From Amphibalanus amphitrite (Eukaryota; Arthropoda; Thecostraca; Balanomorpha; Balanidae), in contig NW_024881595.1 in assembly GCF_019059575.1 (NCBI RefSeq), forward strand, positions 868,001-932,000: a stretch of 64,000 nucleotides of DNA, written 5' to 3'. Shown here piece by piece: positions 10,118 through 46,400 of the stretch. Made by a program: the position numbers and the translations under genes. How positions within the stretch are numbered: position 1 is the first letter of the stretch; each line of letters begins with the position of its first letter. Under the pieces are notes generated by a model. That model ran no database searches and had not been told where the DNA came from. It saw only the letters and a list, made by a program, of their open reading frames with translations.

Positions 10118-10556
10118 TTAGCCCTTGCATGTGTGCGGCGTTTGCCAGCTTCTAACGTGTCGGGGGGGGGGGGGGTCGTTTGGACCCCCCCCCCCCCCCA
10201 TTGCCGTTTGGCCCCTGATCGAGCTAGAGCTTCGCGGAAAAAACGAACGTGTTGCCCGTGACGATAGAAAGCCAATGATACCCAATTTTAAAGGTCCTAG
10301 GTCATCGGTTGACCTTCCAGGTCAGGTCAATGACCCAAAAGTCGGGAAAATCGGGACCTATTAGAAAGTCGTTAAGTGTGGCTGCTATGGGGGTTTACGG
10401 GGTGCTGATCACGAATATCGTGTTAGTTTTGATCACATGTGATGTCTTTAAGCATTTAGACCAGGTGAGGTCAGGCCAGGTCAACCAGTAGCGGTCGTGA
10501 CGGGTATTCGTAGTACGAGTTAACCACCTCTGACAGCTTCGTGGCATGTTACGAAG

Positions 10557-10822
10557 CATAGGCGCGGGAGCCGGGGGGGGGGGCAGTGGGGGCAGCTTGC
10601 CCCCCCCCCCCCAACTCTGGGGCCGTGGGGGCGGTGCCCCCACAGCTTTGAGACGGAATACCACATTTTTTTTGCAAATGTTTTCTTTTTTTGTTGAAAA
10701 ATCCGAGGGGTGAAAAATAAGTGGCCTAAAACCGGTGAGAAACCTAGATTTGGGGGTACCCTAGGTTAATCTCTATTATGGTGTGCCCCCCCCCCAGTCG
10801 GAAAGTAGTTCCCGCGCCCCTG
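10557..10822. mobile_element. hAT-like MITE nested in the piggyBac-like MITE
   Basis: Flanked by a perfect 8-bp duplication TTACGAAG (10549-10556 and 10823-10830). Terminal inverted repeats CATAGGCGCGGGAGCC and CAGGGGCGCGGGAACT. The other family 1 MITEs read through the insertion point without it, which confirms an insertion. Contains long G and C runs and no reading frame. Confidence 0.85.
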
Positions 10823-10938
10823 TTACGAAGGCATCAAAACTACTTCGTAAATGTTCAAATAGTTTCTAAATTCGAATTCAGCTCCAAAAACTAGCCCAGA
10901 AACATGTAAAACTCGAAAAAGTGAACCGAGGTCACCAA

Positions 10939-10951
10939 AGGTCAATGACCT
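10939..10951. promoter_or_regulatory. Perfect IR-1 nuclear-receptor-type palindrome in MITE i
   Basis: AGGTCA-A-TGACCT, the idealised inverted repeat with one-base spacer recognised by EcR/USP-type receptors. Activity is not shown by sequence. Confidence 0.4.
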
Positions 10952-11580
10952 GACCTGACCTTCAGGTGACCTCGACATCCACCCGAATGCATGGGGGCAA
11001 CATCAAATCACATGTTTGAACGTTTGAAACCACGAAAAGCTTGCAAACGCGCGGCTAATGCGAGCCGACATACGCCGAATCGCGATTCCGGCCAAACATG
11101 GCCTCAAGAAATAGGTCACAGGTCAAAAGTCACTTGGGTCAGGGTCATCAAATATTCAGAGTAGGTGTAAAATTGATCAACTCGAGGGTACTAAAAGTTT
11201 CGCCGCGATCGGCCCCTTTTAGCGCGAGTTATTCGCGAAAAACCATAGGGGGGGGGGGTCCATCCGACCCCTCCCCCTCCCCCTCCCCCACCATCCGACA
11301 TGAGAGGGTTAACATTCAACGCACCAAGACCTTGGTTTTAAAAAATTCGATATAGGTATCTAAAAATGTAGCTACCAGCCTACCCCCCCCCCCCCCCAAA
11401 AAAAAAAAACACGCACGCATCGAAGTAGGTATGTCGGACATAATATCCTCTTCATTATAGAGTTCAGTGCCTCTTCCTCTGCTAACCGAAGTCCGAATAA
11501 GACTTAGCTTAGCAGGGCCAGGGGATCGGTCCAAATAGACGAAAATGGAAATCAGAGTCAGGGCGTATTTTAACATGTTA

Positions 11581-11606
11581 ACTGGGTCGGCAATTGCCGA
11601 CCCAGT
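11581..11606. repeat. 26-bp perfect palindrome near the left end of hAT-like element A
   Basis: ACTGGGTCGGCAA followed by its exact reverse complement. The half-site CCGACCCAGT recurs twice just downstream and once near the right end of the element, as subterminal transposase-binding repeats do in hAT elements. Confidence 0.75.
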
Positions 11607-11639
11607 CACGGAGAATGCCGACCCAGTGACAGCCGTTTG

Positions 11640-13064
11640 CCGACCCAGTTGCCGCCCCCTCTAGGATGCAGCACGCACATGCAGGCAAGGTGCCGTCATT
11701 CATAGTGAGGCTGCTGCCCTCCGAAATGATAATGCCGCCTCTTAAAGTGAAGCAGCCGTCTATAGAAAGTGATGATCCCACAACTCAATGTGACAGTGCC
11801 GCCCCTAAATCTGTTAGTAGTCCCACTCAATGTAATGGTGCCGCCCTTCTAAGCATCTGTGGAGCCCCTCAATGTGATGATACCGCCCCTCAAGAAGATG
11901 ATGCCGCCCCTTTCAGTATCGAAGCGCCCCTCAATGTGATGGTGCCGCCCTCAAAGTGCCGGTGGCGCCCCTGAATGTGATGGTGCTGCCCGCCAACGAG
12001 TCGATGGCGCCCCTCAAAATGATGCTGCCGCCCCTTAAAGTGTTGGCGCCGCCCCTTATAGTGTCAGTGACGCCCTTCAAGTGTCGGAGGAACCCACTAA
12101 TATAATGGTGCCGCCCCTCTAGATATCCACATAGCCCCTCATTGTGATGGAGCCGCCCCTCAAGCAGATGATGCCGCCCCTGAATGTGATGGTGCTGCCC
12201 GCCAACGAGTTGGTGGCGCCCCTCAAAATGATGCTGCCGCCCCTTAAAGTGTTAGTGCCGCCCCTTATAGTGTCAGTGACGCTCTTCGAAGTGTCAGAGG
12301 AACCCACCAATATAATGGTGCCGCCCCTCTAGGTATCCACATAGCCCCTCATTGTGATGGAGCTGCCCCTCAAGCAGATGATGCCGCCCCTCAAGAAGAT
12401 GATGCCGCCCCTTTCAGTATCGGTGGCGCCCCTCAATGTGATGGTGTCTCCCTCAAAGTGCCAGTGGCGCCCCTAAATGTGATGGTGTCTCCTGTCAACG
12501 AGTCGGTGGCACCCCTCAAAATGATGCTGCCGCCCCTAAAAGTGCTGGTGCCGCCCCTTACAGTGTCAGTGGCGCCCTTCAAAGTTTTGGAGGAACTCAT
12601 CAATACAATGTTGCCGCCCTCTAACTTTCTGTAGCGCCCCTTCATATACATAATGGTGCCGCTTCTCAAACCATCCGTGGCGCCCCTCAAAGTGATGGTG
12701 CCGCCCCTTACAGTGTCGGTGGTGTCTTCTCAAAAGTCAAGGTGCCGCCTCTCAAAGAAATGCTGGTGTCCCTCGAAGTGTCGGAGGCGCTCCTCAATGT
12801 CATGTTGCCGCCCCTCAAACCTTCCGTAACGCCCCTCCACGTCATGGTGCCGCCCCCTCCCCCCCCCAATGTGCTCACGGCGCCCATATGTGATAGTAAC
12901 GCCGGTCAAAGTGCTCCTGGCAGTGTCGGTGGCGCCCCTTATAGTGTCGGTGGCGCCCCGAACAGTATCGGTGGTGGCCCTCAAAGTGATGACGTCACCC
13001 TCAAACAAACGGTGGCGCCCTTCGAAGTATCGGAGTCCCTAAATATCATACCTATTGCCGCCCA
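11640..13064. repeat. GCCGCCCCT degenerate minisatellite, left block
   Basis: Imperfect units of about 25-35 bases of the form atggtgccgcccctcaaagt. A longer duplication is visible: 11971-12179 and 12180-12388 are near-identical 209-bp tandem copies. The array continues at 13945, after the nested MITE. No coding function is credible. Confidence 0.85.
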
Positions 13065-13944
13065 TTAACCCTCGCCCGTGTAGGGGGGGTCGAACGGACC
13101 CCCCCATGGTTTTTCGCAAATAACTCGCGTAAAAAGCGGCCGATCGCGACAAAACTTTCAGTACCCTCGCGTTAATCAATTTTACACCTACTCTTAAAAT
13201 TTCATGACCCTGACCCCAATGACCTTTGACCTGTGACCTACTTTTCGAAACCATGTTTGGCCGGAATCGCGATTCGGCGTATGTCCTCGGCTCGCATTAG
13301 CCGCGCGTTTGCAGTCTTTTCGTGGTTTCAAGCGTTCAAACATGTGATATGATGTTGCCCCCATGCGTTAGGGTGGGTGTCAAGGTCACCTGAACGTCAG
13401 GTCAGGTCATTGACCTTTGATGACCTCGGTTCACTTTTTCGAGTTTTACATGTTTCTAGGCCAGTTTTTGCAGCTGAATTCGAATTTAGCAACCATTTGA
13501 ACATTTACGAAGTAGTTTTGGTGCCTTCGTAACATGTTACGAAGCTGTCAGAGGCGGTTGACACCTACTAGGAATACCCGGCAGGACCCCTACTGGTTGA
13601 CCTGACCTGACCTGACCCGACCTGGACTAAATGCATGAAGACATCATCTGTGATCAAAACTAACATGATATTCGTGATCAGCACCCCGAAAAACCCCGTA
13701 GCAGCCACACTTTACGACGTTCTAACAGGTCCCGATTTTCCCGACTTTTGGGTCATTGACCTGACCTGCAAGGTCAACCAATGACCTAGGACCTTAAAAT
13801 TAGGTATCATCGGCTTCCTCTCGTCGGGCAATTTTTTCCCCGAAGCTCTAGCTCGATCAGGGGCGAAACGGCAAGGGGGGTCCAACGGACCCACCCCCCT
13901 TATACGTTCGCGGCTGGAAAAACACCAATACGGGCGAGGGTTAA
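13065..13944 (-). mobile_element. piggyBac-like MITE, family 1, copy ii
   Basis: 880 bp including TTAA at both ends; termini TTAACCCTCGCCCG and CGGGCGAGGGTTAA. TTAA targets with CCC...GGG termini are the piggyBac pattern. Inserted in the GCCGCC minisatellite, whose units resume on the other side. Opposite orientation to copies i and iv. Non-coding. Confidence 0.85.
13404..13416. promoter_or_regulatory. Perfect IR-1 palindrome in MITE ii
   Basis: AGGTCA-T-TGACCT, at the position equivalent to the site in copy i, with further AGGTCA copies on both sides. Confidence 0.4.
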
Positions 13945-14357
13945 AGATCTGTAGCGCCCCTCCATATGATGGAGCCGCCCCTTAAAGTATCCGTGGCAGT
14001 CCTTAAAGTTACAGTGCCGCCCCTTACAATGTGGGTGGCGTACTCAAAATAACAGTGATGTTGCCCCCCCCCCCCCCGAGTACTGTTGGCGTCTCTTCTT
14101 TAAGTATCGGAGGCGCTCCTCATTGTCATTTTTGCCCCACATCACTGCTCACATGGCGCCCTTCAATGTAATGGTGCCACCCCTCAACGCTCAAAGAGAT
14201 AATTGCTCTCCTCACAGTGTCGGTGGTGCCCCGGCCCTCAAAGTGGTTTAAGTGCCATAAAAAATTGGTGGCGCGCCTCAAAAATCAAAATGATGCTGTC
14301 GTCCCTTAGCATATCTGCAGCGCCCCCAAAATGATAGTGCCTTCCCTTAACCGGCGC
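13945..14357. repeat. GCCGCCCCT minisatellite, right block
   Basis: Continuation of the array at 11640-13064, more decayed, split off by insertion of the MITE at 13065-13944. Confidence 0.75.
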
Positions 14358-15311
14358 CGGGCTGAGTTTGTTTAAACCCCCCTCCCGACCCCTATAACTT
14401 GGCTACTTAGGCCACGTAGCGACACGCGGTAAGCGGTATTCGGAAGAGTGTCAAAAACTACTTGGGTTAGTTGGTTAGTTGGTACTTTGGTTAGGTCAAG
14501 TCAAATGTCAAATATCAGGTGACCAGAGGTCATCAAAGGTGAAATGTGGGTGAAATGTTGTCTGTTTCAACATTTATTGACAAACTGGCGCATAACTCGG
14601 GGAAGAATAGAACTACAGCACCGCGAAAAAGCGCATTCGATAGCTCTTCAACGTTCCTATGAAGTCCTCAGACTTGACCTAACATCAACGGCTTAACCTC
14701 CAGAGCACAACTTGTTTAACCGTGCCGGGCCGGGGAGGGTTGGAGGGGACAGTGGACCCCCTCCGCCCCTCTACTGAGCTGTTTTAATGAAGAACCTTTT
14801 TACTGTAATAATTATTGACTCACGAAAGTTATGACATTGTTTTTTCAGTACTGTGCTCCTCTCGTCGAGATGCGTCGAATGAACTATAATTTGACATTCA
14901 AACGTCATTTGGGAAATTTGAGCTCAGGTCCAGGTCATGACCTGGCTGGTAAAGGTCATGTTGCATATCAGTCGATTTGTATCGTCAAACTGAAATCATC
15001 TACATAAGGTGTGTTCATCGCTCAGGCATGTCGCATGTCTCTATCAGAAGTTATTGGAAAAAACTGCTGGAGGCCTACCATGACCTGACATGACCTCAAG
15101 GACATAACGAGGGGTCGTGGGTGGCAATTTTCCGATTAAGTGTGTCATTTTTAATTGTTTTCTGATGTTTAAATTCGTTAACTTTGACATTTGTCTACCT
15201 ATAAAAAGAGGCACATGCCCTGATTTTCTCCCATTTCCTTATACCTAATGGAAGGGTCGCAAAATTGTCCTTACCTTTGGTCAGAGACATCGCAATTTCG
15301 AGACTTACATT
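14358..15311. repeat. Decayed repeat resembling piggyBac-like MITE family 2
   Basis: Starts TTAACCGGCGCCGGG. It includes GTAGCGACACGCGGTAAGCGG, similar to GATAGCGACAAGCGGTAAACGG in the element at 37965-38972, and scattered AGGTCA motifs. A second TTAACCG...GCCGGG sequence lies at about 14716 in the same orientation. No matching right end was found. Confidence 0.35.
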
Positions 15312-16193
15312 TTAACCCTCGCCGGTACAGGGGGGGGGGGTTGATGCAACCCCCCTCCCTAAGGTTTTTCGCGAATAACTCGCGTAAAAAGCGGCCGATC
15401 GCGACGAAACTTTCAGTACCCTCGAATTGATCGATTTTACACCTACCCTGAAAATTTTATGACCCTGACTTCAATGACCTTTAACCTGTGACCTCTTTTC
15501 CGTGACCATGTTTGGCCGAAATCAAGATTCGGCGTATGTCGGCTCGCATTAACCGCGCGTTTGCAAGCTTTTCGTGGTTTCAAACGTTCAAACATGTGAT
15601 TTGATGTTGCTCCCATGCATTAGGGTGGGTATCAAGGTCACCTGAAGGTCAGGTCAGGTCATTGACCTTTGGTGACCTCGGTTCACTTTTTCAAGTTTTA
15701 CATGTTTCTAGGCTAGTTTTTGGAACTGAATTCGAATTTAGCAACCATTTAAACATTTACGAAGTAGTTTTGGTGCCTTCGTAACATGCTACGAAGCTGT
15801 CAGAGGCGGATGACAGTTACTACGAATACCCGTCACGACCCCTACCGGTTGACCTGACCTGGTCTAAACGCTTAACGACATCATCTGTAATCAAAACTAA
15901 CACGATATTTGTGATCAGCACCCCGGAAATCCCCTTTAGCAGCCACAATTTACGACTTTCAAACAGGTCCCGATATTCCCGATTTTTGGGTCATTGACCT
16001 GACCTGGAAGGTCAACCGATGACCTAGGACCTTGAAATTGGGTATCATTGGCTTCCTCTCGTGACGGGCAACACGCTCGTTTTTTTTTGCGAAGCTCTAG
16101 CTCCATCAGGGGCCAAACGCGAGGGGGGGGGGGTCGTACCAACCCCCTTGTGCCGTCGAAGGACTCAAAATGGCCTGTGCCGGCGAGGGTTAT
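15312..16193 (-). mobile_element. piggyBac-like MITE, family 1, copy iii
   Basis: About 882 bp; left end TTAACCCTCGCCGGTACAGG, right end CCTGTGCCGGCGAGGGTTA, so the inverted repeats extend to about 20 bases. The right target is TTAT rather than TTAA. Same orientation as copy ii. Subterminal G-run/C-run hairpins and AGGTCA clusters are present. Confidence 0.83.
15656..15668. promoter_or_regulatory. Perfect IR-1 palindrome in MITE iii
   Basis: AGGTCA-T-TGACCT, preceded by AGGTC repeats. Confidence 0.4.
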
Positions 16194-16284
16194 ACCCGTA
16201 TATACAGTTACACACTGTTTGTCTTATCAATCGCTGAAGTTATAAAGGGATCGTTCAGTCGGTATATCTATGGTGAGCATTTGC

Positions 16285-16320
16285 CTGTTCCGTGGCTCAG
16301 TTGGTAGAGCACCGGACTCC
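16285..16320 (+). pseudogene. tRNA-like 5' half (SINE head or tRNA relic)
   Basis: Contains a perfect A box TGGCTCAGTTGG followed by TAGAGCACCGGACT, the D arm and anticodon-stem start of a tRNA. No B box or 3' half follows, so it is not a functional tRNA. Confidence 0.55.
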
Positions 16321-16771
16321 CCGCATTGTCTTCGCTTGCGTTTTGTCCGCCGGCCGAGCCGGAGAGAAAGTTACCGAGTGAAGGTCATTCAAATTTCAAA
16401 AACTCAATGACAATGTCACTGGGGTCACGAAAATGTTTGAGTAGGTAGGTATAACATTCATTAACTTGGGGGGGGGAGGGATGAACGTATCGTTGCAATA
16501 CGCTGTTCATTACGCGAGTAACTAATAAATAAAAAATGTATGAGTTAATCCTTATTCCACCCGCTCTCCCTCTCCATAAAAAAGAGAGTTAATTGTGTTG
16601 CATTTTATTTATACCTATGCAGAAAATAGAGGCGTCAAAGGATATGACCGAATATCAGCGACCCTTGCTGTGTAAGCAATGGGGTATGACAAGTGGGGGT
16701 AATGGCCCCGTCCAGCGCCCATAAAGTGGGCACACTCGTGCGACCTGCCGACCACTGTTCTAGATAGAGTC

Positions 16772-16993
16772 ATGAAACGCCGTGAATATTTTAAGCTTGA
16801 CGACACGAATCGACTGGTATGTAACATGTTTACCTCAGGTAAAATTTTAAAATTATTTTTTGGTAAGTCAAAAGTTCATTTATCGCATTATGATGAGAGA
16901 AATACTATATCCCGGAAAAATAAACGTAATACCGCTGAGCTTAGGTTTAATCTGAAATCATTACTTAGGAAGAGTTATAAAAGAACCGTCTAA
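16772..16993 (+). pseudogene. Possible hAT transposase remnant (BED-finger-like)
   Basis: Seventy-three codons beginning MKRREYFKLDDTNRLVCNMF. A WxYF-like aromatic start, a Cys near position 17 and a later HLSH resemble a BED zinc finger whose second Cys is lost (F for C). It lies inside hAT-like element A, near its right end, which supports the guess. Too short and degenerate to be sure. Confidence 0.35.
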
Positions 16994-17134
16994 CGTGTCT
17001 TTTTTGGTCATTAAATATCAGTAGGTATGCCGCCCCCTCAGATGCCAAGTGCCGCCCCTATGAGTGCAAAATGCCGCCCCTAATTGTGATTGCCGACCCA
17101 GTGAAAATCCCTTAAAATACGCCCTGATCAGAGT

Positions 17135-17582: not shown

Positions 17583-20500
17583 CAGCTGAAAAACAGACAT
17601 CACCATTGGAATCAGCGTCCAAAACTGTACCCATGGACCAGTTTTTATGAAAATCTAAGGGGGTCCACCTTCGCCCCAAAAAACTTTGAATGCCTCTAGG
17701 GGCCAAAATATAATATGTGGCGAAAAACAGACTTCTTCATTGGAATCAGCGTCCAAAACTGTACACATGGACCAGTTTTTATGAAAATCTAAGGGGGTCC
17801 ACCTTCGCCCCAAAAAACTTTGAATGCCTCTAGGGGCCAAAGTATAATATATGGCGAAAAACAGACTTCACCGTTGGAATCAGCGTCCAAAACTGTACAC
17901 ATGGACCAGTTTTTATGAAAATCTAAGGGGGTCCCCCTTCCCCCAAAAAACTTTGAATGCCTCTAGGGGCCAAAGTATAATATGTGGCGAAAAACAGACT
18001 TCACCGTTGGAATCAGCGTCCAAATCTGTACACATGGACCAGTTTTTATGAAAATCTAAGGGGGTCCCCCTTCGCCCCAAAAAACTTTGAATGTCTCTAG
18101 GGGCCAAAGTATAATATGTGGCGAAAAACAGACATCACCATTGGAATCAGCGTCCAAAACTGTACCCATGGACCAGTTTTTATGAAAATCTAAGGGGGTC
18201 CACCTTCGCCCCAAAAAACTTTGAATGCCTCTAGGGGCCAAAATATAATATGTGGCGAAAAACAGACTTCTTCATTGGAATCAGCGTCCAAAACTGTACA
18301 CATGGACCAGTTTTTATGAAAATCTAAGGGGGTCCACCTTCGCCCCAAAAAACTTTGAATGCCTCTAGGGGCCAAAATATAATATGTGGCGAAAAACAGA
18401 CTTCTTCATTGGAATCAGCGTCCAAAACTGTACACATGGACCAGTTTTTATGAAAATCTAAGGGGTCCCCCTTGCCCCAAAAAACTTTGAATGCCTCTAG
18501 GGGCCAAAGTATAATATGTGGCGAAAAACAGACTTCACCATTGGAATCAGCGTCCAAAACTGTACCCATGGACCAGTTTTTATGAAAATCTAAGGGGGTC
18601 CCCCTTCGCCCCAAAAAACTTTGAATGCCTCTAGGGGCCAAAGTATAATATGTGGCGTAAAACAGACTTCACCATTGGAATCAGCGTCCAAAACTGTACA
18701 CATGGACCAGTTTTTATGAAAATCCAAGGGGGTCCCCCTTCTCCCAAAAAAACTTTGAATGCCTCTAGGGGCCAAAGTATAATATGTGGCGAAAAACAGA
18801 CTTCACCGTTGGAATCAGCGTCCAAAACTGTACACATGGACCAGTTTTTATGAAAATCTAAGGGGTCCCCCTTCGCCCCAAAAAAAACTTTGAATGCCTC
18901 TAGGGGCAAAAGTATAATATGTGGCGAAAAACAGACTTCACCATTGGAATCAGCGTCCAAAACTGTACCCATGGACCAGTTTTTATGAAAATCTAAGGGG
19001 GTCCGAATGTGATTTTGAAAGTGAATCTGAATGCCCTAGGGGCCAAAGTATAATATGTGGCGAAAAACAGACTTCACCATGGGAATCAGCGTCCAAAACT
19101 GTACACATGGACCAGTTTTTATGAAAATCTAAGGGGGTCCCCCTTCCCCAAAAAAAACTTTGAATGCCTCTAGGGGCCAAAGTATAATATGTGGCGAAAA
19201 ACAGACTTCACCGTTGGAATCAGCGTCCAAAACTGTACACATGGACCAGTTTTCATGAAAATCTAAGGGGGTCCCCCTTCGCCCCAAAAAAACTTTAAAT
19301 GTCTCTAGGGGCCAAAGTATAATATGTGGCGAAAAACAGACTTCACCATTGGAATCAGCGTCCAAAACTGTACCCATGGACCAGTTTTTATGAAAATCTA
19401 AGGGGGTCCCCCTTCGCCCCAAAAAACTTTCAATGCCTCTAGGGGCCAAAGTATAATATGTGGCGTAAAACAGACTTCACCATTGGAATCAGCATCCAAA
19501 ACTGTACACATGGACCAGTTTTTATGAAAATCCAAGGGGGTCCCCCTTCTCCCAAAAAACTTTGAATGCCTCTAGGGGCCAAAGTATAATATGTGGCGAA
19601 AAACAGACTTCACCGTTGGAATCAGCGTCCAAAACTGTACACATGGACCAGTTTTTATGAAAATCTAAGGGGTCCCCCTTCGCCCCAAAAAAACTTTGAA
19701 TGCCTCTAGGGGCAAAAGTATAATATGTGGCGAAAAACCGACTTCACCATTGGAATCAGCGTCCAAAACTGTACCCATGGACCAGTTTTTATGAAAATCT
19801 AAGGGGGTCCGAATGTGATTCTGAAAGTGAATCTGAATGCCCTAGGGGCCAAAGTATAATATGTGGCGAAAAACAGACTTCACCATGGGAATCAGCGTCC
19901 AAAACTGTACACATGGACCAGTTTTTATGAAAATCTAAGGGGGTCCCCCTTCCCCCAAAAAAAAACTTTGAATGCCTCTAGGGGCCAAAGTATAATATGT
20001 GGCGAAAAACAGACTTCACCGTTGGAATCAGCGTCCAAAACTGTACACATGGACCAGTTTTTATGAAAATCTAAGGGGTCCCCCTTCGCCCCAAAAAAAC
20101 TTTAAATGTCTCTAGGGGCCAAAGTATAATATGTGGCGAAAAACAGACTTCACCATTGGAATCAGCGTCCAAAACTGTACCCATGGATCAGTTTTTATGA
20201 AAATCTAAGGGGGTCCCCCTTCGCCCCAAAAAAACTTTGAATGCCTCTAGGGGCCAAAGTATAATATGTGGCGAAAAACAGACTTCACCATTGGAATCAG
20301 CGTCCAAAACTGTACACATGGACCAGTTTTTATGAAAATCCAAGGGGGTCCCCCTTCTCCCAAAAAACTTTGAATGCCTCTAGGGGCCAAAGTATAATAT
20401 GTGGCGAAAAACAGACTTCACCGTTGGAATCAGCGTCCAAAACTGTACACATGGACCAGTTTTTATGAAAATCTAAGGGGGTCCCCCTTCGCCCCAAAAA

Positions 20501-20645
20501 AACTTTGAATGCCTCTAGGGGCCAAAGTATAATATGTGGCGAAAAACAGACTTCACCATTGGAATCAGCGTCCAAAACTGTACCTATGGACCAGTTTTTA
20601 TGAAAATCTAAGGGGGTCCGAATGTGATTCTGAAAGTGAATCTGA
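17583..20645. repeat. 134-bp satellite array with higher-order structure
   Basis: Twenty-three tandem monomers counted by the shared segment GGACCAGTTTTTATG (mean spacing 134 bases). Monomer landmarks: GGAATCAGCGTCC, GGACCAGTTTTTATG, CTTTGAATGCCTCTAGGGGCC, TATAATATGTGGCG. From about 18.6 kb, marker variants recur every six monomers (about 806 bp). The segment GAATGTGATT(T/C)TGAAAGTG replaces the usual C-run at 19003, 19809 and 20617; GGCGTAAAAC occurs at 18654 and 19462; GGGGCAAAAG at 18903 and 19709. All frames inside are repeat translations. Confidence 0.95.
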
Positions 20646-20727
20646 ATCTGAGGCTGTCTTGACAGACGTCGTGGTGGCTTGAATATTTACGTGGCGCTTC
20701 GCTTGGCAATGGCGACATGGCGACCAA

Positions 20728-25464: not shown

Positions 25465-26363
25465 TTAACCCTCGCCGGCACAGACCATTTTGCGTCCTTC
25501 GACGGCACAATTACGACCCCCCTCGCGTATGGCCCATGATCGAGATGTAGAGCTTCGCGGAAGGTCCTAGGTTAGGTCATTGGTTGACCTTCCAGGTCAG
25601 GTCAATGACCCAAAAGTTGGGAAAATCGGGACCTGTTAGAACGTCGTAAATTGTGGCTGCTACAGGGCTTTTTGGGGTGCTGATCACGAACATTATGTTA
25701 GTTTTGATCACAGATGATGTCTTTATGCATTTAGGCCAGGTCGGGTCAGGTCAGGTCAGGTCAGGTCAACCAGTAGGGATCGTGACGGGTATTCGTAGAA
25801 CATACGTGTCAACCGCCTCTGACAGCTTCGTCACATGCTACGAAGGCACCAAAACTACTTAAATTTTCATATGGTTGCTATATTTGAATTCAGCTAAACA
25901 AAAACTAGCCTAGAAACATGCATAGCTTGAAAAAGTGTACTGAGGTCCTCATAGGTCAATGACCTGAACTGACCTTCAGGCTTCAGGTGACATTGACATC
26001 CACCCTTATGCATGGGAGTAACATATCAAATCACATGTTTGAACGCTTGAAACCACGAAAGGACTGCAAACGCGCCGCTAATGCGAGCCGGCATACGCCG
26101 AACCACGATTCTGACCAAACATGGTCTCGGAAAGTAGGCCAACTTTGGCCTACTTTCCGACCTTTAGGTCGGAATTTGACCTTTAGTTCATTTGGGTCAG
26201 GGTCATGAAATTTCTAGGGTAGGTGTAAAATTGATCAACGCGAGGGTCTGAAAGTTAAGTCGCGATCAGTCCCTTTTTACGCGAGTTATTTGCGAAAAAA
26301 AAAACTTTAGGGGGTTGCATCAAACCCTTCCCCCTGCTGCGAGGGTTGTGCTGCGAGGGTTAA
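25465..26363 (+). mobile_element. piggyBac-like MITE, family 1, copy iv
   Basis: 899 bp from TTAACCCTCGCCGGCACAG to GCGAGGGTTAA, the right end locally duplicated (GCTGCGAGGGTT twice). Same orientation as copy i. Contains (GGTCA)n at about 25743-25767 and the IR-1 site at 25953. Confidence 0.83.
25953..25965. promoter_or_regulatory. Perfect IR-1 palindrome in MITE iv
   Basis: AGGTCA-A-TGACCT, at the equivalent place to the site in copy i. Confidence 0.4.
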
Positions 26364-31400: not shown

Positions 31401-34400
31401 GGTGAGATACAAAAGTAGCACAGTTCGATATTTCTCATAGGTCGTTCCTCATATATCGGTAGCAATGGCACCTTTGACATACTCTCGGGTACTTTGAGAA
31501 CATAATTTATCTTAGCGAACGTAAGCGGACGTACCTTTTTCGTTTTCTTGGCGAGCACCTCGCGTGTTCCCCAGGTGACGTTGTTGAGGTTAATCAGCGA
31601 GTACAGGATAAGCAGCAGGTACATAGACGGGATGGAGAGCAGGTAGATGAAGCCGGGGATGATACACTTGAACTCCTGCGGATGCAGTATGGCCGCTATC
31701 ACCATGAAAAGGATTGTGGCCATGAGGAAGATGAACGTGGGCGATCCGGGACCGTCCTCGTACAGCTGCAGCGTCTGACCGACGATCACGGCCATCATGA
31801 TGAGTGCATAGCCGGCAGACAGGATCTGGGCCACCAGAAGCTGAAATAGATAGGGCAACGATGGTGAGGAGAGAGTGCGACACATCTGGGAAGATGGAGA
31901 CAGACAACAGTTGAATAGTGACCATGCGATTCTCATGATCGGTCATCTCATTGCTATATTTAACTCGTAAATGCGACATATCAACAGTAAGATAGATCTG
32001 CAACCCTCTCACCTGTATGTTTGACTTGAGCGTGAAGCAGACGAACATGAATCCGATGATGGGGTAGACGTTGTACTGGAACGAGGTCCAGTTGTCGATC
32101 CGGAAGGCGGCCACAAAAGCTCCCACCAACATGAGGAAGATGGTGCCAGGTCCCAGAATCGTACCGGCCATCAGGAACGTCTGCCACGAAAACAGAACGT
32201 TAGACAATGCCTCTGGTCTTGTATCAAACTGTCATATCGTACGGGACATCCAGTGTTCAGCTTTTGTCACTACGATTGAATCTATCGCTGAAAATACAGA
32301 ATGGGCTTAAAGCTGAAACTGAAAGGATGTCATTTTTGCTGCTCACCTGGTATCCGATGTAGGGAAGCGAGATATTGTCGTTGATCTTGATCGTGTTCTT
32401 GTAGTCCATGAGCAAGTCCATGATGTTGGCAATGGTGGAAGGTACCCACCGACGGCGCTGGTTGTAGAACTCGTTGAAGCCTTCAGGACAATGAGTGTAG
32501 GCGTCAGAGGCGGCCGAATATTCCACACGGTAGCCTCGCTGCAGCAACAGGGTGCACAGCCAACGATCCTCTCCCTGATCGTACTGCACGTAATGGCGAG
32601 CCTGGTGAGAAGTCAGCGTGTACCGCTTCATCACGTTGTCGTCCATCAGACCCTTGGCGCGGAACAGAGAGAAGCATCCAGGACTACAGAGCACACAGCC
32701 GATCATGTGCTCGGTGGCCTTCTGCAGCCAATGGCCGATAGCGTACTCGAACAACTGGTACCACACCATTGGTCCGGAGCCGACGGGGTGGATACGGCCA
32801 CAAGCAGCGCCCAGGTTCCTGTTTTTCTTCATCAGATCGACCAGCAGCTTGACAGCGTTCGGCTGGAAGTCGATGTCTCCGTCCAGAGTCAGCAGGTAGG
32901 TGTTGTCGGCCATGATCTCCTTACGCTCGACAGAGATGTCCAGCTCCATCAGCCTGTAGCCGAGCAGGTAGTACATGTACATCACCTGGCTCCAGCGCTT
33001 CCTGTGACGGATCAACATCTTGTTCTTCAGGTGAGCAATCATCTTGGTCTTTCCGGGCAGGGTCCAGGTGAGCCGACCGCCGTACGGAGTCGGGGTCTTC
33101 ACCGGGGGCCTCAGTCTGATCGGGATCTGATGGACGTGGGAGGCCGCCTCGTCGATACACTCGACCAGCAGCTTGACGAACCGGTTGGCCACCTGCTCGT
33201 CTTCGTCCTCATCGGACATCTCAAACGCGTCGTCGAAGAAAATGTGCGTCTCGAACTCGTAGTAGTCCTTGTCGCGCACCTTGAGGTACTCCTGGGCGAC
33301 CTTCATGGCCGACTGATCTTCATCGAGACGCAGCACCGACTTGAGCATCTCCATCATCTCGTCACGTGTCTCGTGCCACATGGTGGCGCAGGCCAGGATG
33401 CGGGTGATGTGGTCCGAGGGTTTGACACCACCGGTCTGCGATGAGTCGGTGTGGATGCTGATGGTCTCGTAGTGCTGGGTGCTGTCCGGATCGTCTGGGT
33501 CGATGACGCGAGTATCCGAGTCGAGACGCTCCGGCTCGTCGTCCTGGCGACGGTTCATCGAGAGCGACTGGTCGATCAGCAGTGAGTTGTACATGGGTGT
33601 CACGAATAGCGTCTCGGTGGCCGCCAGACGCTCGCAGTGAGGAGTCCAGATGTGCAGTGTGATCCATGTTTGTGAAAACAGCCACAGCACCCAGATCCAG
33701 ACGTGCTGCAAAAGGAGAAGGAATTATCTTAGCCAAGTGCCTTCAACCAGGACCGTCGATGCGTACCAATGCAACCTCTGAGTGGAACATGCGCAAGGGA
33801 AAGCGCGCAAATTGAAGATAAGCATTCCTGTAACTCCTAAAGCCATTCCACCGTTCTTCTGATTCAGTTCGATGCTCACCTCTCCAGCGATGAAGTCCTT
33901 GATGTAGTCTCCAGACGGGCACTCGAAGAACAGGTAGCTGGGGATGGTGTCGCGCATGAAGCACGAGTCACCGGCTCTCAGACCGCAGCTCATCAACAGC
34001 AGCGACAGCGTCACCGGGATGGTCAGGTTCACCGGGAACGCGAAACTGAAGCCCTGGATGCAGATCTTGCAGGCGAACTTGCCTGTGGGTCGATGTGAAT
34101 AAGCGTTATTAGACGGCGTTAGCAGAACATGAAGCAAGACCAAGAATTAAGACGGATTGCTTTGTTATCAGCGTGAGAAGATGGCTATCTCGGCCTGGTG
34201 TTTTGTCAACCTACCGAAGATGTAGGCGAGGTAGGCGCACAAGATCTGGATCAGGGCCACGTAGACGGGCGCGTTGCCGTCGGAGAGGATGGTCTTGGTG
34301 TCCTGGAAGCGCGCGAAGTCGGCCGTGTCGGTGACGGCTCCGATCGGGACGCCAGCGGTCTGCGAAGAAAGTGAACGTCAGCTTACGACACATCAGGTTG

Positions 34401-37400: not shown

Positions 37401-40400
37401 AACTCAGTGAAACGTAGCACCAGGACTCGTGGGAACTGCAACGCAGCAAAAGAAGGTAACACTAAAATGGCTGGAAACTGCATTACAGCACAAGACGGTA
37501 ACACTGATGTAATCAGGAACAGCATGGCGGCTAATGCGTCACCTCAGCTTGTGAATAAGTAGTGAGTGAAGCTGAAGGATACCAGCTCGAAATATTCTCA
37601 GAAGGATATGAAGTCATTGGCATTGCCCTAGCACATGTGCCACTTATGGAGCAGAATTGTTCAGCACGCCAATGCATAATTTCGTTGAACTAAATCGGAT
37701 CGATTGCGTGCAGTTGAACATGCAAAGGTTTCAGCGCTTCATGTTCTGCACCTCAGAACTTCAGAAGCGAGCAATTTAGTTTCCTAAGGAAAATCTGCGG
37801 TTCGTAGGTACTTTGGTGTAACCTGCAAAGTTTGCGTCGGTGTCTTTTAGTGTGCTGGTTATCCGAGCCGTCCTCGGGTGTTCACGATATGATGGTAGTT
37901 ACCCGTGACATCGCGTGACAAGCTATGAAAAAAATTGACTTGCTCATGCGGCAGCAGGGGCTATTTAACCCGCGCACCGACGGGGGTCTGCGCCAACTTA
38001 GTACCGACGGGGGGGGGGCGGATGACCGCCCCCCCCTGAGATCTCGAGAACGAAGCAAGATAGCGACAAGCGGTAAACGGCATCGGATACGCACGGTCAT
38101 GATCTACAATTTTTACTAAGGTCATTTTCAGGTCAGGTCAAAGATGACGTCACAGGGGTCGAAAAAGTCAAAATGGCGGCGCTAAATATGGAGAGAGTCT
38201 TTCTCGAATAACTTTCGAATTAGTCAAGATAGGAACAAACTAAGGGCATCATCGTGATCCTCTCGTCAATCCGCATCGAATGATATATATGTTGACCTCG
38301 AAAGGTCAAGGTCAAAGGTTGACCTCAGGTCACGTGACCTCGAGGTCATCATGTATATCATTCGATGCGTCTTGACGAGCTGAACACAATGAGACCATCC
38401 ACGCGTCTGTATCTTGTTCCTGTACGGAGTTATTGGCCAAAAACCTTTGGTGACCTTTGATGACGTCACATGACCTCACAGCTGCCCAACAGCAAAACAG
38501 ACCTCAAGGTAGTGAAGGTTGATCGTATATGAAGTCATGTATGGTATATGGGGCCATTCCGACCCGTTTTAGTGGTAAAAACAGGGAGTTGATTTTTCCC
38601 CCATTGACTTATAATGGGGAGGTCGCGAAATTGACCTGACCTTAGGTCACCGATATCAAAATTCCGAGATATACAAATTGTAGCTACTAATGACCTTATA
38701 ACATCCTGCGACTTTCAAAGGCCTCCGACATCTACTGTAGCTCTGGCACGGTGACAAAGTTGCAAAAAAGTGACTTGAGGTTGGGTCATTCAAAGTGACC
38801 TGGTGACCTGACCTTGAAAGGTAGGAGGTTCAAACTTGCACACCATGTGTAAAATTGATAAGGGAGTAGTCATACCAAATTTCGCGGCGCTACGCGCCGC
38901 GGTTTTCCCGCTATTCGCGAAAAACCTCAGGGGGGCGGATATCCGCCCCCCCCCCGTCGGTGCGCGGGTTAAAGCTTGACAGCGTGAGTGCTGAGCAGCC
39001 CAGCAGTTGGTATGTTTGTTTGATCGGGAAAATAGTTCCACGTGGTTTTCGGTGCCATTGTCAGTGCTGTCCCACCTAGCGATTATATAAGATCTTCCGA
39101 ACTTTATGCTCTGAAGTCTGAAGCAATTGCACACCTGGAAGTTTGCAATCTGATATCAAGTCTGCTAAACAGTTCTTATACGTTGATTTTTTCATAAATA
39201 CCATGCACTCATTGTGCTTGTTTTGAAGGACAACAGATTTACGCCTTTCGCTCAATCAACGACGATCCCTTCACACAGAATCAAACAATACCGACCACTT
39301 TCAGTCAACAGCTGGAACAATACCACCCTGATTAGAGCGGCCCTCTGCCCAAAGCGGCGGCGTTACTGGAGCGTCTCGGGCGGGGGGCTGGCGGTACCAT
39401 CCCGGGCAGCCGGCGGCGGCGGCAGGCCTTGGAGCACCCCGCCCCGGCCCGCCCCGGCCCGTCCCGGCTCCGACCGACCGCAGGGCGTGGTCCCCAGCTG
39501 CGCCACTCCCGACCAAGGACAGAGCCCGGTTTTTGTGGCCGCCGGACGCGGCGCGCACGTCGCCGGTTTCCTGGAGACCGGCCCTCCTGGCGAGATGGAC
39601 ACCGTCCTAATGGCGTGGCGGTCGAAACGGCTGTTGGCCTTGTAAATGATGAGTTTGGTGGTCTCTTTATATGCAAACAAACCCGGAAGATGCCGACATT
39701 GACGGATGTGAATTAAGATGCGTACACTTCATGGTTTGATGGCTCTTCGTTGAGTGTTACCTTTTGATGTCAAGAATCTCTTCATGCATAATTTCATCTG
39801 GCTGTTGTCTTTTGGAGTGTTGATATTGATCAGATAATAAATGTAAAAGCGGACATTTTCAGCTTTCAGCATTTACGATGCACCGACAGGTAATCAATTT
39901 AGCGAGAAAGTATTCGCTGAAATATATGCTGGGTTTGAGGGTAGATCAGTGGAGCGACAGCCGGATTTAACGAACTACTTCTGACCCCGATAAGTCTACT
40001 TTTGCTTTCATGCAGATAAAGGATTCCTTTGTTCAACTCTTTGCCAAACTGTGTGCTGCGCTGGGTTTTATCCAATAACAATGCCTTTATCGTATCGAGT
40101 GACACAACGAATCCCGTGCTCACGCCCCGATGCACAATGCAGATAGCACTTTCATTTACCTCAGAAACACGTGAGGTTCAGTCTCCAGCCAAGGCGAGTG
40201 TGTCGGGTTTCCCGTCCGGATAGGGCGGCTCCCTCTGCCGCGCCACTGCTGACCATCGGACCTCGCCCGTGTTGGGGGCGCCTCACCCGTCCCAGGACCT
40301 CGCCCCTCCGTCCGGCCGACCGGGCCGCCAAGGCCGGGAGCTGTCACTGGACCGGACGGCCACCGGAGGGCAGGGTGTGGTCCCGCCCGAGCCGGACGGA

Positions 40401-43400
40401 GCTGCGCACCTCCTGAACTGGTCCAGGATGTTCTCAGGGCGGTATCAGATGGCGGAGCATGAGAGGCGGTTTGTGGATGACAAACAACGCTGTGTTTGTC
40501 CGGAGCAAACACGATCAACGGCCCCCAGTTCAGCCAAACACATCGGGAATTCTGTTGACAGAACGCGTTCTTCTACTTCCCGAGTTTGAGGCAAGTGGTC
40601 AACGCAAGCTGCAACTAAAATCACATGCATGTGCCCTTGCTCGGGATGAATCATCGGATGATGAGTTGCCGTTTTAGCTGACATTCCAGCGCAGAGGACC
40701 GGAACTGAGATACCGACTGGTCGGTCGTCCCGCAACCTGGACAACGGAGTCAGCGAATTTCCAGAGCTATCGATGCATGGCGGTGTCATGAGTGGTGACG
40801 ATTCTTTGGAACTGCGTTGGCATCGGCGGCACCTTAGTCGCAAGGGATAGGTACAGTCTTTCAACCAGTCAGCGTCCAGTCACTGCGCAGTTCGATCGGT
40901 GGCGGCGACTTGACGCTGATCTCCCATCAGATTCGGACTGAGTTCACATGATCTCCAGCATTCATCAGCCGTCACTTTCCATGACCTTCTGGAGTAGCGC
41001 GCGCGTCAGCGGTAACTCACGGTGGCCGTGATCTGTCCGCGAGCGTGTCGAGCTGTCTGATGACCCGGAACCACCCCTTGGCACGTCATCGAGCTGTCTG
41101 CGTGGGCGGCGGCCGGAAGCCGTCTGCGCCCGCGGCGGCGGCGGGAGGGGGCCGCCCGACGCAGCCCGGCCGCCCGGCACCGTCCAGAGGAGCGGCGCGG
41201 GTGCGACTGTACAAAAAACGAAAGTTAACCGGTCGACCTTGGGGCGGCAGCTGAGCCGGCGCGGCGCGGGAGAGAGACACCGTTACACCTCTCCCGGCCG
41301 GCGCCGCAGCTCTCCGTGGCCTCTCGAGTCTTTGTAGGGATCTCCGGTGACTCTCAGTGACTCAGGAGTCAGCCCGACTCTCTATGATAATTAGGAACGG
41401 GTGTGATCCTTACTGAGTTTACGCGACTCTTTACTTTTTGGAGAGAACAGAACCGCAGCACTTTGTTATATCCGAACCCTCCACAATAAGCCCAAACTTA
41501 CTGCTTACCAACTGGCATTCGGTGTGAATGTCGATGAGACAGCTATTTCGAACCACTTCGAGTGGTTTGGACTGGAATCCATATTTATCTTGGTTATTCC
41601 TCTTTTCACAATCCGTAGCCTGTGACTCGGTCCATGGTCGTTTTGTCCGCCTGACATGTTACTATCAGTATCAGTAGCTGCCGTGGCTATGGCAGCCCTG
41701 CGGCGGTTCATGGGGCACTGGCAACTAAAGGATGAGGTGAATAATAAACGGACGGGATTAGGAGACGGCGGCTGTGCCAACGGCCTCTGAGGGACACGTT
41801 CCCAGAACTGAAAAGACAAATGAAGCAAGCAGAGAGGCTATGCTTATTCGCTAGCGATGTTTCTATGTAGAATACCTTAGTGGCACTTTTCACGACTGCC
41901 CCATGTTAGGCGGCAAGTCTGCTTGGTTAATCTTATCGCTAAGCCAATCTTCTCCGATATAGCCGGAAATCGTGTCCGAGAGATGTTAAGTGTCTGGGCT
42001 GAGATAATCCTACAATCTCGAAACTACTTTCTAAATATGATCCTGGGTGTATTTCTTGCGATGAAATCATATGTACCAAAGTAGGTATCACCAGGAATTA
42101 AAAGACTGGTTATTAAGGTCTTGAAAACCAAAGACATATATACGATTAGCTTGGCATGGAGTTTGTTCAAAACACTCAAGTCACCGCTGCGCTCCGAGAC
42201 ACACAGCTCGGCGTCAATCCAATGCTGGCATTCAGCCTCTGCGTTCTTTCATCTCGGCCGTCAGTTTGGACTGTGTTTGTTGCCGGTCTCACGCCCTGAC
42301 CGTGGCGCGGGCCCTTCACTTTGGCCGGTGCTGGCAGCGGGCCCGCACCCCCACTCCTTCTCGGCCGCTTGACCCACATTCGGGCGTGACCGTCTCCCAT
42401 TGCGGCACTCTGGAATGGGCCGACAGCCTGCCGCGTGCCACGCCCTCCCCCTCTCTCCCCTCCCCGGCGGGCCGGTCAGCTCAGCGGCCGCCGCAGTCGG
42501 ATCTGTCGTATCAGAGGCTACCGGGGGCAACAAAAACGTGCAACAGCGCTACCTGATCACAGACGACAGGAGTCGCTGCTGCCGGTGTAAAAACTGGAGC
42601 CCGAACCACGGAACAGGAAGACGGCGGGGTTCTATAGGGCTGGTATTGTACTGAGAGTGAGACGGCAGCGGCTCGCACGGGCGGCGGCGAACGGGATTTA
42701 ATTGCTGCTGGGAACAGCCCGAATGTGCAGCCAAGGTCGCTTGGAGTAAATAGCGACAATAACAGCTAGTGCAGTGCTTCCTGTAGTTAGGCGGCTGTCA
42801 GTGGAATTACTTTGGTCGTTAATTTGGCAGCCACGTAATTGTATAACAGTCGTTGGCATACTTGATGAGAATCTGGATGCTGCTTCAGGGCGTGAGACGA
42901 TTGTGAGTCATTGGATGTTTTTTTTAAGCTTCATATGTCATCTCAGGGATATATCTTGAAACGGTCTGCAGATTTGCCGTTATTCTTCCATTGCCAGACG
43001 TCTAATCCTTTCTTTGTCATCGAACAGTCCCATACCCTGCAGAATTTCGGCCGATGAGATCATCCTGTTGCCGGCATGTTCTCTGAATTCATACTCTGAA
43101 TACCGCCCAGCTACGCCTAATTTTCAGGAAGGCTGCACCTCTGCTCGCATAGCTTCTACGTCCTCACATCTGTTCTTTGTCTGATACCGTGTGGAGCTCC
43201 ACCCAAATCCCTTTTTACTGTCCAACGGCTCCCAGGTCTTCTCGAAACTTTGCGCCCTCTGGTCTCTGTCGCCGCTAGTAACTGCCAGTCTAAATGCGCC
43301 CACACTCCGTCTCCCCTGTTCATCTCGTTCACCACATAAGGACACTGTTTGGCCGCGGCCACAAATCAGCTCGTGTAGATCGGACTTGTATGACGTCATC

Positions 43401-46400
43401 GTGGGGCCAGGGTCACCCTCCGCGGCTGGACAGTGGACGGGAGAGCGAACGAGCCGGTTTTGACATTGAGGTTTTGTCCGAACTCCGAACAGCCTGGTGG
43501 AGTCCCGTGAATTGAGCGTCAACAAGCTCACGGATATGAAGCGTGGTTGGAGGAGTGGGGACTGGGAGGACCAGTCAGAGAGAAAGGGCACAGTGACAGT
43601 TGTTTACCGGACGGCGTGTGATTGATGGCGAAAGTCAGTGAGATCGCGCCGGAGCTGTTCACGCTTCACCGGGCAGAACAAGTCGAGTCGAGCACTAGAG
43701 CAGCATGAGTAAAGGTTACGGTGAGACATGCGTACGGTTACTTGTGGTGTCTTGTGCGCCATCACACTTCATCACATTGTGACCTTTGACATGATGCATA
43801 GGCAGATGTCATGCATCGTCTTCAGGGCATGGAGTCTAGAAAGCAAAGCCTGCTGCCAACACGAATTCCTACACAGCTTGATCTCAACACAATTATTGCT
43901 TCGATTGTGCTCCGAACTCGACGCCTCCCAGACGGAATCCCGCAGCTCCGCTCTAGGCCCGGTCCCGACTCGGGCAGGAACTTGCAGCTCTATTCCGGGC
44001 GGGCCGTCTTCCCAATAGCGGCCCGACCGGGTGTGGTGCACTGCGCCGGCCGCCCGATGACCCCAATGAAGCTCGGCTGGCGACCGGCCCGGGAACTCTC
44101 GCTCTCACTCGGAGACTGGGCCGCGGTCAGCTGATTAACGGGGCACGGCGGCTCGGCGACAGACGACAGAGTTTTGGTCGCAGCGGCGAAACTATCAGCT
44201 GGGAGTCACTGACATGCTATAATGGCCAAATGCCGCCTCTCAAGATTGTGGCAGACTGGAGGTGTGTCAATAATTCATGAGACCCATTGTAGAGATATGA
44301 CTGGATGCAAAACTTTCATGCGTTTTGTATAAGGATTGAAATTTTTACGTCGTTTTTGCGTGAAGAGATGCTAAAGAATACTGCGACTGGCGCCAAAGGA
44401 TTTTGATGCTGTTCGCCCACCACATATCCATATTTCAACACTGAGCACAAGTCCAACAAAGAAAATCGCCTCCGCTCCTGCCTTCCAGCTCTGCTAGACA
44501 TCCCGGTGGCCAGCCCATCTTAGAGCTGCTTGCGGGCACAGTGAGCCAAAAAACAGGCCGGCCTTCTACCTAGACCGGTCTGCCGGGCGGCATCACCGTC
44601 AGACAAAACACGACGGGCGGACTGTCCACGGTTACCGGCGTCTACCAGCGCGGTATCGACTGGTTACCGATGGATTACCAGCGCGATTACCGGCGGGACA
44701 CGTCACCGGTCGTCAGTCGGCCCTGGCGTGGGTGGCGCGACAGCCGCCCCTCTCCTCCGCCGCAGTACCTGTCACCGCAGAGAACCGGCACGTGACGTCA
44801 CTGCGGGAGCCGTCCGTGTACCGGCATTACCAACACCAGGCGTTAGCAAGGTATTTCTGGTGAGGGGCAGCCCTGTCGGGAATGCCTCCCGCATGTCCAA
44901 GTCCGCGTGTTTTACCACCCATACGATGACTTAGGGCAGTCCGTCGTGCTCCCGATGGAAGCATTGTGTTATTGGAGGCTGTTTCCAGGTCGGTCGCCGG
45001 ACGTGGCTGGTTTGATCGGATCTAGCTCAATGATTGGTTAGTGGGGGGCGCTGAGATCCGCCAGCTGCTGCACCTCAGAGATTTTCCGTCAGATTTTTCG
45101 TCAGCAATGGAAGATGGTGACGTTTCAAGGCTAGGGCTGATGTTCGACAGGCTGAACGGTGGTGGCGAATTTAGTAGCGTCTGGTTGTCACGGGAATCGG
45201 CATCAAATATAAAACCGATGACTTATCACGCGCACTGCAGGGGGGGGGGGGGTTGTTTTCAACCCCCCCCTGTGGTTTTTCGCAAATCGCGAGAAAACGG
45301 CGGCGCGTAGCGCCGCCAAATTTTGCATACCTGTTCTCCCAACTTTTGCACACCTTGAGTAAAAATTTTGACCCCAGGTGACCTATGGTCAGGTCACCAG
45401 GTCAGGTCAAGTGACCCTACCTCGAAACGTAAATTTCGAAGTTTGCAATCCCACCAAGCCCACAGTTGTTGAGATATGATCTTGAAACCCACAGGAAATA
45501 GTAAAGTCATCACGAGCTACAACTTGTATATCTCGGAATTTTTATATCGATGACCTAAGGTCAGGTCATTTTTGCGACCGGCCCATTATAAGTCAATGGG
45601 AGAAATTTCAACTTACTCTGAATGCCATCCTATGACTTCAATACGCTCAGGATCATAGTATTACAGGTCCCTGTTGGTGATTTCACCGAAACATATCACT
45701 TATGACCTTTGGAAGGTGATCTCCAGGTCATCTTAGGTCACCTGAGGTCACCAGCGGTTTTTCTTCAATAACTTGAGATTGAATAGAGATAGAGACTCCG
45801 TTCGACGTTTATCGTGTTTTTCTCGTCAATGCGGATCGAATGATATGCAACATGACCTATTTCGGTCAGGTCATGACCTTGACCTGAGGTCAATTTTTCA
45901 ACTTGACCTTTCGAGGTCATATTATATATCATTCGATGCGCCTTGACGAGCTAAGAACGATGGCGTTCGAATCGATCCTCTGTCTTGTGTGCAAGACAAG
46001 TTATTCAAGAAAAACTACCGCGAAATTCCTGTTGTGAAAATCGTAACATTTTGTCTTCGGTGACCTCTGGTGACCTCGTTTTTGTGTTTTTGTGACCTGA
46101 CCCAAAAATGATCTTAGTATTTCTTGTAGATCTCATCTTAACCTATCCAACGCCGTTTACCGCTTGTCGCTACGTTGCGCCGTTTTCGAGATCTCAGGGG
46201 GGGTTGTTTTCAACCCCCCCCCCCCTGCAGTTCGTGTTCGGCTCAGACCCGCTGCAGTGCGCGTGTTATGTTGACGGTAACTAAAAAATCGGCATACATA
46301 CACCCCTACACAATTACTTTTTCACTGAAGCGGGGCGGTCATCGGATGATTTTAAAAGTGTACTGGATTTCCATCTCATCAGACTAACTTCGTCTCCTTG

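Follow-up and report, generated by a model that had tools for sequence, protein, structure and literature searches.

AGGTCA arrays in piggyBac-type elements of Amphibalanus amphitrite as candidate cis-acting sites of a transposon clan

Nuclear receptor sites are dispersed by a repeat in the case of human Alu, a non-autonomous element that holds 90% of 108,582 consensus retinoic acid response elements of the DR2 type (direct repeat, DR, with a 2-bp spacer), which according to the cited part of that work arose mainly by CpG deamination in the copies (PMC1785376); HNF4 sites in Alu are described as well, in the part cited (PMC3252374). Among DNA transposons, Helitrons of Caenorhabditis carry heat shock elements (HSEs) and disperse the sites of a host stress factor, as the cited part of another report describes (PMC6927752), and the abstract of a study on C. 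elegans transposable elements gives motifs of 45 factors as more than 20-fold enriched (PMC8896005). Here we describe a 64 kb stretch of the barnacle Amphibalanus amphitrite genome (contig NW_024881595.1, positions 868,001 to 932,000; hereafter the window), part of an 807.6 Mb assembly in 2,644 contigs, in which miniature inverted-repeat transposable elements (MITEs) of the piggyBac type carry dense arrays of the nuclear receptor half-site AGGTCA.

The barnacle elements resemble Alu in that a non-autonomous repeat scatters nuclear receptor elements, but their sites are arrayed, are also found in transposase-bearing copies and are kept between two diverged element lineages. They resemble the Helitrons as DNA transposons dispersing a motif of a host factor, but belong to another transposon class, the dispersed motif is AGGTCA, and arrays of HSEs, absent from a 200 kb sample of the genome, were found solely upstream of the transposase. 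The factor motifs of the C. elegans study are likewise enriched in transposable elements, but that host is a nematode and the abstract names no piggyBac clan with AGGTCA arrays (PMC8896005). With the piggyBac superfamily and its MITEs (PF13843) they share the TTAA target, CCC-type terminal repeats, the transposase and short copies derived by deletion; dense AGGTCA arrays and cAMP response elements set them apart. No earlier report of arthropod MITEs with AGGTCA or ecdysone elements was found in the literature searches made, whose hits were judged partly by title. Our preferred reading, to which we give a probability of about 0.5, is that a large piggyBac clan uses the AGGTCA arrays as its cis-acting sites, which are read by an AGGTCA-binding protein, the likeliest being a host dimer of the EcR/RXR type.

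AGGTCA arrays in the window and across the genome

The inverted repeat (IR) with a 1-bp spacer, IR-1 (AGGTCA-N-TGACCT, AGGTCANTGACCT), occurs four times in the window, against a mean of 0.00 over 100 dinucleotide shuffles. A preliminary description of the window had placed one perfect IR-1 in each of four family 1 MITEs and an IR-2 and an IR-0 in the two family 2 MITEs, and all six were found exactly there (Table 1); an extra IR-0 lies inside a degraded family-2-like copy. Single half-sites number 128 on both strands of the window, compared with a shuffle mean of 30.7 (sd 4.9, largest 42). When the elements themselves were shuffled 500 times each, with borders that differ by at most about 6 bp from those tabled, the family 1 elements held 15, 14, 12 and 14 half-sites vs means of 0.39–0.54 (maximum 3–4), the family 2 elements 19 and 21 vs 0.55–0.59 (maximum 5), and the degraded copy 8 vs 0.57. 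The many further half-sites that had been claimed are thus real, with 12–21 in each of six elements against shuffle means of 0.39–0.59, and the dinucleotide-shuffle check proposed for them has been run, with counts far above the shuffles in all six.

The window MITEs are non-coding and 880–1047 bp long when uninterrupted, and the target duplications of the families are TTAA or TTAT. In three window elements the terminal inverted repeats (TIRs) start with CCC (or CAC) and match at 12/14 to 14/14 positions; they read CCCTCGC in family 1, CCCGCGCACCGACG in family 2a and CACGCGCACTGCAG in family 2b, while a third family found elsewhere (L005, L010, L024, L027) has CCCTCGCCGG, and other families differ again. 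Copy numbers are high, with 4,243 first-look candidates for a family 1 probe and 1,350 for the end of family 2a, 40 being scored in each. Nineteen fetched family 1 copies and that of the window differ by 0.3–3% from their majority sequence; the fetched copies were the best-scoring matches to a probe outside the IR-1, which favours young copies. Half of the six window elements (those starting at 13065, 37965 and 45223) are near-identical to copies elsewhere, the first lying 1.5% from the family 1 majority and the other two showing 96–98% identity to sampled copies. The assignment to piggyBac-type MITEs, already proposed in the preliminary description, is upheld by the TTAA/TTAT targets, the CCC repeats, the short non-coding length, the high copy number and an end layout like that of the transposase-bearing element C44 described below.

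In the whole genome IR-1 occurs 20,300 times, about once per 40 kb, compared with 27 occurrences of the reversed pattern. Inverted pairs with spacers of 0–12 bp number 150,702 (866 for the reversed pattern), and direct pairs with the same range of spacers 265,299 forward and 268,293 reverse (2,373 and 2,156). The 200 kb sample consists of 20 pieces of 10 kb (L009–L028), drawn pseudo-randomly from the 97 first-numbered contigs. Counting both strands, it contains 573 AGGTCA, 6.1 times as many as expected under a first-order Markov model, and of all 6-mers with 60 or more occurrences just the TA and GA repeats rank above it. Extrapolation of the sample gives about 2.3 million half-sites per genome. 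Their density is 7.9/kb in repeated vs 0.98/kb in unique DNA, and 29 clusters of five or more half-sites were present in the sample. The genome is full of small piggyBac-type elements carrying many copies of AGGTCA.

A transposase-bearing relative and the layout of the half-sites

At least 116 matches to the piggyBac transposase were found (116 of 232 candidates scored), and 17 copies were first examined with their flanks, 7 as 3.3–3.5 kb segments and 10 by two flanks. Among these 17, C44 alone combines MITE-like ends that bear half-sites with an IR-1. The C44 element is 3,975 bp long and encodes a transposase (PF13843, E 5.6e-70), and the family 5 MITEs L014:6130-7084 and L020:5289-6233 are its internal deletion derivatives, their identity to it being 91% and 82% at the left end (about 395 bp) and 90–91% at the right end (about 315 bp). 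Families 1 and 2 are linked to a transposase element through a common end layout only: the left ends of families 1, 2, 3 and C44 all run from TTA through G/C runs and GGTTTTT to half-sites at about 155–175 bp, which ties the window families to piggyBac. Within the ends, a left module GGTCAGGTCAC can be aligned across families 2, 3, 5 and C44, and a right module AGGTCA-N5-TGACCTAGGACC across families 1, 3, 5 and C44, with AGGTCA in 8/8 rows and the second half-site in 7/8 (C44 having one changed base).

The region upstream of the transposase combines several motif types, whose names, i.e., cAMP response element (CRE), HSE, TATA and initiator, we take from general knowledge. In reverse-complement coordinates, C44 has half-sites at 749, 932, 937, 1119, 1124, 1511 and 1683 and the IR-1 at 1494, CREs at 763, 951, 1138 and 1331, heat-shock arrays at 1646 and 1764, TATAAA at 1933, TCAGT at 1962 and the first ATG at 2003, which places the perfect IR-1 about 440 bp ahead of a TATA-like box. 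Nine half-sites lie in the 1,418 bp 5' region and none in the 1,898 bp part of the open reading frame (ORF) that was tested. A genome search with a 501-bp upstream segment gave five near-full matches at 99–100% identity and partial matches on three more contigs. Four copies besides C44 have its upstream sequence, although C171 departs from it farther upstream and C42 does so on the 3' side, and C44 is the only delimited one of the five. The IR-1 is present, at this distance from the TATA-like box, in 5/5 copies of the segment, as are HSE arrays of at least four alternating GAA/TTC units (L079, L098, L100, L103, L104); no four-unit HSE occurs in the 200 kb sample. The CRE palindrome TGACGTCA is found 64 times in that sample vs about 3 by uniform expectation, about 20-fold, 25 of the 64 lying within 100 bp of an AGGTCA, and the family 2a MITE of the window has two, at 38145 and 38461.

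The half-sites are also arranged with respect to each other. Of the first 100 listed genome places in which an IR-1 is followed by TGACCT at a distance of at most 9 bp, 86 have exactly 4 bp between the two and 10 have 5. In the window and sample together (264 kb, related copies included), DR4 neighbours make up 40 pairs with 21 different spacers, and no other direct-repeat spacing from 0 to 16 has more than 6 (at spacings 0 and 1 there can be no more than 1 and 4). Besides IR-1, the layouts DR4, IR-5, IR-6, IR-11 and an everted repeat, ER-1, are enriched. The inverted AGGTCA repeat with a 1-bp spacer (or DR4 or IR0) by which an ecdysone response element is recognised in sequence is present.

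The half-sites could instead be bound, as subterminal or internal sites, by the transposase of the element itself or by an accessory protein that the element encodes, their likeness to hormone elements being coincidental. Such sites are known in plant hAT and CACTA elements, and MITEs need to be bound by a transposase while they need no promoter. The outermost half-sites lie 104–187 bp from each end in 12 script-delimited elements (a minimum of four half-sites was set; as the families are related, they do not count as 12 separate cases), and the left and right modules line up across families. On the other hand, the footprints known for piggyBac lie near the element tips, half-sites also fill the middles of the elements, and CRE and HSE motifs adjoin them. 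Other piggyBac copies of the genome also differ: five delimited ones with CCCATTAG-type repeats (L069, L070, L074, L088/089, L094/095) have 2, 0, 4, 1 and 1 half-sites, i.e., 0–4, in the fetched parts, 11 non-delimited ones have 0–6 scattered half-sites in fetched DNA (most in L071 with 4 and L075 with 6), and IR-0 to IR-2 occur in 0/16 of them, 11 of these 16 being non-delimited. The flank fetches extended to about 1.15 kb beyond the transposase domain, and more distant ends may be missed. The half-sites as a general piggyBac feature were considered and, in this partial test, not seen in the other examined copies. We regard transposase binding as a possible explanation, though not the probable one.

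Retention of half-sites and their candidate readers

Families 2a and 2b are about 63% identical outside the half-sites. With half-sites masked by N before alignment, 13/19 were in exact register; with half-sites randomised, which removes their pull on the alignment, the mean was 9.3 (7–12) against the window 2b element and 10.6 (7–13) against that of L016. The expected number is 1.1–1.2, and other words of AGGTCA composition were kept in 4/36 cases. Masked and randomised alignments were made for ten and five pairs, respectively, chosen by hand. In family 1 pairs of 84–89% identity an excess was found in three comparisons, 11–14 of 15 vs 5.8–7.5. An unmasked alignment of 8 right ends, from MITEs of families 1, 3 and 5 and from the transposase copy, gives half-site columns a pairwise identity of 0.90 vs 0.70. 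In a table of word retention in BLAST pairs, from which the satellite and the 21-bp repeat field of the window were left out, AGGTCA ranks 29th of 932 words pooled, a position that BLAST anchoring biases upwards.

These comparisons bear on whether the arrays are a neutral by-product, produced by (AGGTC)n slippage in prolific MITEs and copied by transposition with nothing binding them. The commonest neighbour arrangement is indeed the overlapping (AGGTC)n array (106 pairs in 264 kb), and in the 200 kb sample direct repeats are frequently spaced with a period of 5 (4, 9, 14). However, isolated half-sites are kept in diverged pairs of 60–70% identity in 141/217 cases vs an expected fraction of 0.16 (with a bias from alignment anchoring), the masked and randomised alignments of families 2a and 2b agree, and DR4 with its 21 spacers is not mainly a decayed array. 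We therefore find a neutral origin unlikely.

The level at which the sites are kept was approached through private changes in 20 young family 1 copies, after L033, which lies 23.6% from the family 1 majority, had been dropped. There were 8 changes in 91x20 half-site cells vs 75 in 568x20 other cells, 0.0044 vs 0.0066 per site and copy, a deficit that is not significant (p 0.34); two of the changes fall inside the IR-1 itself. With L033 included, 28 changes are in half-sites and 202 at other non-CpG sites. MITEs exapted by the host would be expected to conserve half-sites better than neighbouring positions after insertion; no such difference was measurable, and the counts leave room for modest constraint. 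Since private half-site mutations are not significantly rarer, there is no sign of the host keeping single copies as regulatory modules. Judged from these sequence comparisons, constraint seems to act on the moving transposon lineage, with no measurable constraint on landed copies.

We hypothesize that a piggyBac clan with AGGTCA arrays has flooded the genome and that an AGGTCA-binding protein would read the sites, helping the element to express its transposase or to move. The most economical candidate would be an EcR/RXR-like dimer of host nuclear receptors, because IR-1 and DR4 are its sites and the upstream region also has CREs and heat-shock arrays. A 1-bp spacer is the optimum for an inverted repeat bound by EcR. 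Exons for the DNA-binding domains of EcR and RXR are present in the genome (L056 and L049), with the ecdysone receptor 4umm and RXR-alpha 4cn3 as best PDB matches. Several near-identical pairs of nuclear receptor exons (PF00105) lie on different contigs, e.g., EcR-like ones on C131 and C488, which suggests duplication or unmerged haplotypes. The canonical ecdysone response element is an AGGTCA inverted repeat in the cited part of one report (PMC4777130), and in the part cited of another, insect EcR-USP drives yeast reporters from DR4, DR5, IR0 and other sites (PMC5494300). The DR4-IR1-DR4 layout fits EcR/RXR, and equally other receptors that bind AGGTCA.

Several observations weigh against a receptor dimer as the reader. 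The strong sites named in the part of the yeast study cited are ER6, IR0, IR4, DR1, DR4 and DR5, and not IR-1 (PMC5494300). IR-5, IR-11 and ER-1 do not belong to the classical EcR layouts and equal or exceed IR-1 in frequency, and the receptor-tolerated variant AGTTCA shows no enrichment in clusters, where only the relative ranking of single mutants was assessed. MITEs have no transposase gene, yet their half-sites outnumber those of C44, which a promoter role by itself does not account for, and the modules at 104–187 bp from both ends could be transposase sites. Transposase copies belonging to families 1 and 2 themselves were not found among the copies examined. Retention between families 2a and 2b represents one pair of lineages, and comparisons with the family 1 copy at 25465 gave little or no excess, both when randomised (6.0 vs 5.3 and 6.3 vs 5.6) and when masked (9 vs 5.4, 4 vs 5.0 and 7 vs 6.4).

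The chitin synthase locus and the meaning of the arrays

Table 1. Features of the window (positions counted from its first base; borders read from sequence or set by script)
Feature	Position	Strand	Borders, target duplication or remark	TIR or Pfam match	Half-sites	Palindrome
Chitin synthase gene A, catalytic-domain exon	249..1487	+		PF03142, E 8e-26		
Family 1 MITE copy d	10118..11312	-	TTAG/TTAA, read from sequence		14	IR-1 10939-10951
Insertion within family 1 copy d	about 10557-10820		separate element interrupting 10118-11312			
Family 1 MITE copy a	13065..13944	+	TTAA each side, CCC terminal repeats, by script	CCCTCGCCCGT	15	IR-1 13404-13416
Degraded family-2-like element(s)	14347..15310	.	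between two family 1 copies, borders uncertain		8	IR-0 14932
Family 1 MITE copy b	15312..16193	+	TTAA/TTAT, read from sequence		14	IR-1 15656-15668
Family 1 MITE copy c	25465..26363	-	TTAA each side, read from sequence		12	IR-1 25953-25965
Chitin synthase gene B, catalytic-domain exon	32257..33720	-		PF03142, E 7.3e-25		
Family 2a MITE	37965..38972	+	TTAA each side, CCC terminal repeats, by script	CCCGCGCACCGACG, 14/14	19	IR-2 38327-38340
Family 2b MITE	45223..46269	-	TTAT, by script	CACGCGCACTGCAG, 14/14	21	IR-0 45868-45879

The two chitin synthase genes named in the preliminary description both match Chitin_synth_2 (PF03142), and gene A probably enters the window from its left edge. The placing of the two family 2 copies in intron 2 of a chitin synthase stands in part: they sit between exon-like minus-strand ORFs at about 48.0–48.5 kb and 37.0–37.4 kb (an interval of about 37.4–48.0 kb), which we take to be N-terminal exons of the enzyme, and Pfam matched neither ORF. 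A position in an upstream intron of gene B, which runs on the minus strand, is plausible from this arrangement. Downstream of chitin synthase A, a GILT thiol reductase gene (PF03227) lies on the plus strand at 8820-9770.

Repeats of other kinds are also found among the elements. A field of degenerate 21-bp repeats (GCCCCTCAAAGTGATGATGCC-like) at 11600-13060 and 13924-14057 flanks family 1 copy a, which appears as if inserted into it. A 134-bp satellite of 22.6 copies with 93% matches occupies 17588-20619, and the segment 22544-23882 is duplicated: 300 bases from 22544 are found again, 96% identical, 722 bp farther along, and both parts contain 128-bp repeats.

The preliminary description saw in the MITEs mobile ecdysone-response modules that the host might have adopted for chitin synthase and other moult genes. 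Perfect IR-1 palindromes, the EcR and RXR exons and the position of elements in and near chitin synthase all speak for this. However, the genome density of IR-1 predicts 1.6 per 64 kb, against which four have P(4 or more) = 0.08, and the window has 8 clusters of five or more half-sites where the 200 kb sample leads to 9.3. With both densities within chance of the background, the chitin synthase region is average, its four IR-1 are not notable, and a special association of the elements with these genes was rejected; for enrichment near moult genes, the one locus compared with background showed no excess. Given also an IR-1 about every 40 kb genome-wide and private half-site mutations without a significant deficit, adoption by the host appears very improbable. 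Of the mobile hormone-response modules, what stood are the piggyBac-type MITEs and half-sites far above chance, and what fell is the link to chitin synthase. Under a receptor-read transposon clan, chitin synthase and other host genes might be affected by chance, the sites not being there for them. This corrects a tempting inference, as elements with hormone-response sites beside a moult gene need not serve that gene.

What stays interesting is a piggyBac clan that seems to have kept receptor-type sites as it evolved, with an IR-1 and stress-type motifs upstream of its transposase. We tentatively propose, as an idea that is still doubtful, that these transposons may be wired to moult-hormone and stress signals, the transposase being controlled through IR-1/DR4, CRE and heat-shock motifs and the receptor sites of the MITEs acting as mobility signals, so that bursts of transposition would be timed by hormone and stress. 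The MITE sites might open chromatin when transposase appears, and about two million AGGTCA half-sites would have been sown through the genome as a side effect of such bursts. If receptors bind, some 20,000 perfect IR-1 would compete for, or be used by, the hormone receptors of this barnacle. The species would then be a natural setting in which to ask how steroid-type hormone signalling functions in the presence of massive decoy sites, and whether transposons time their movement by hormone signals.

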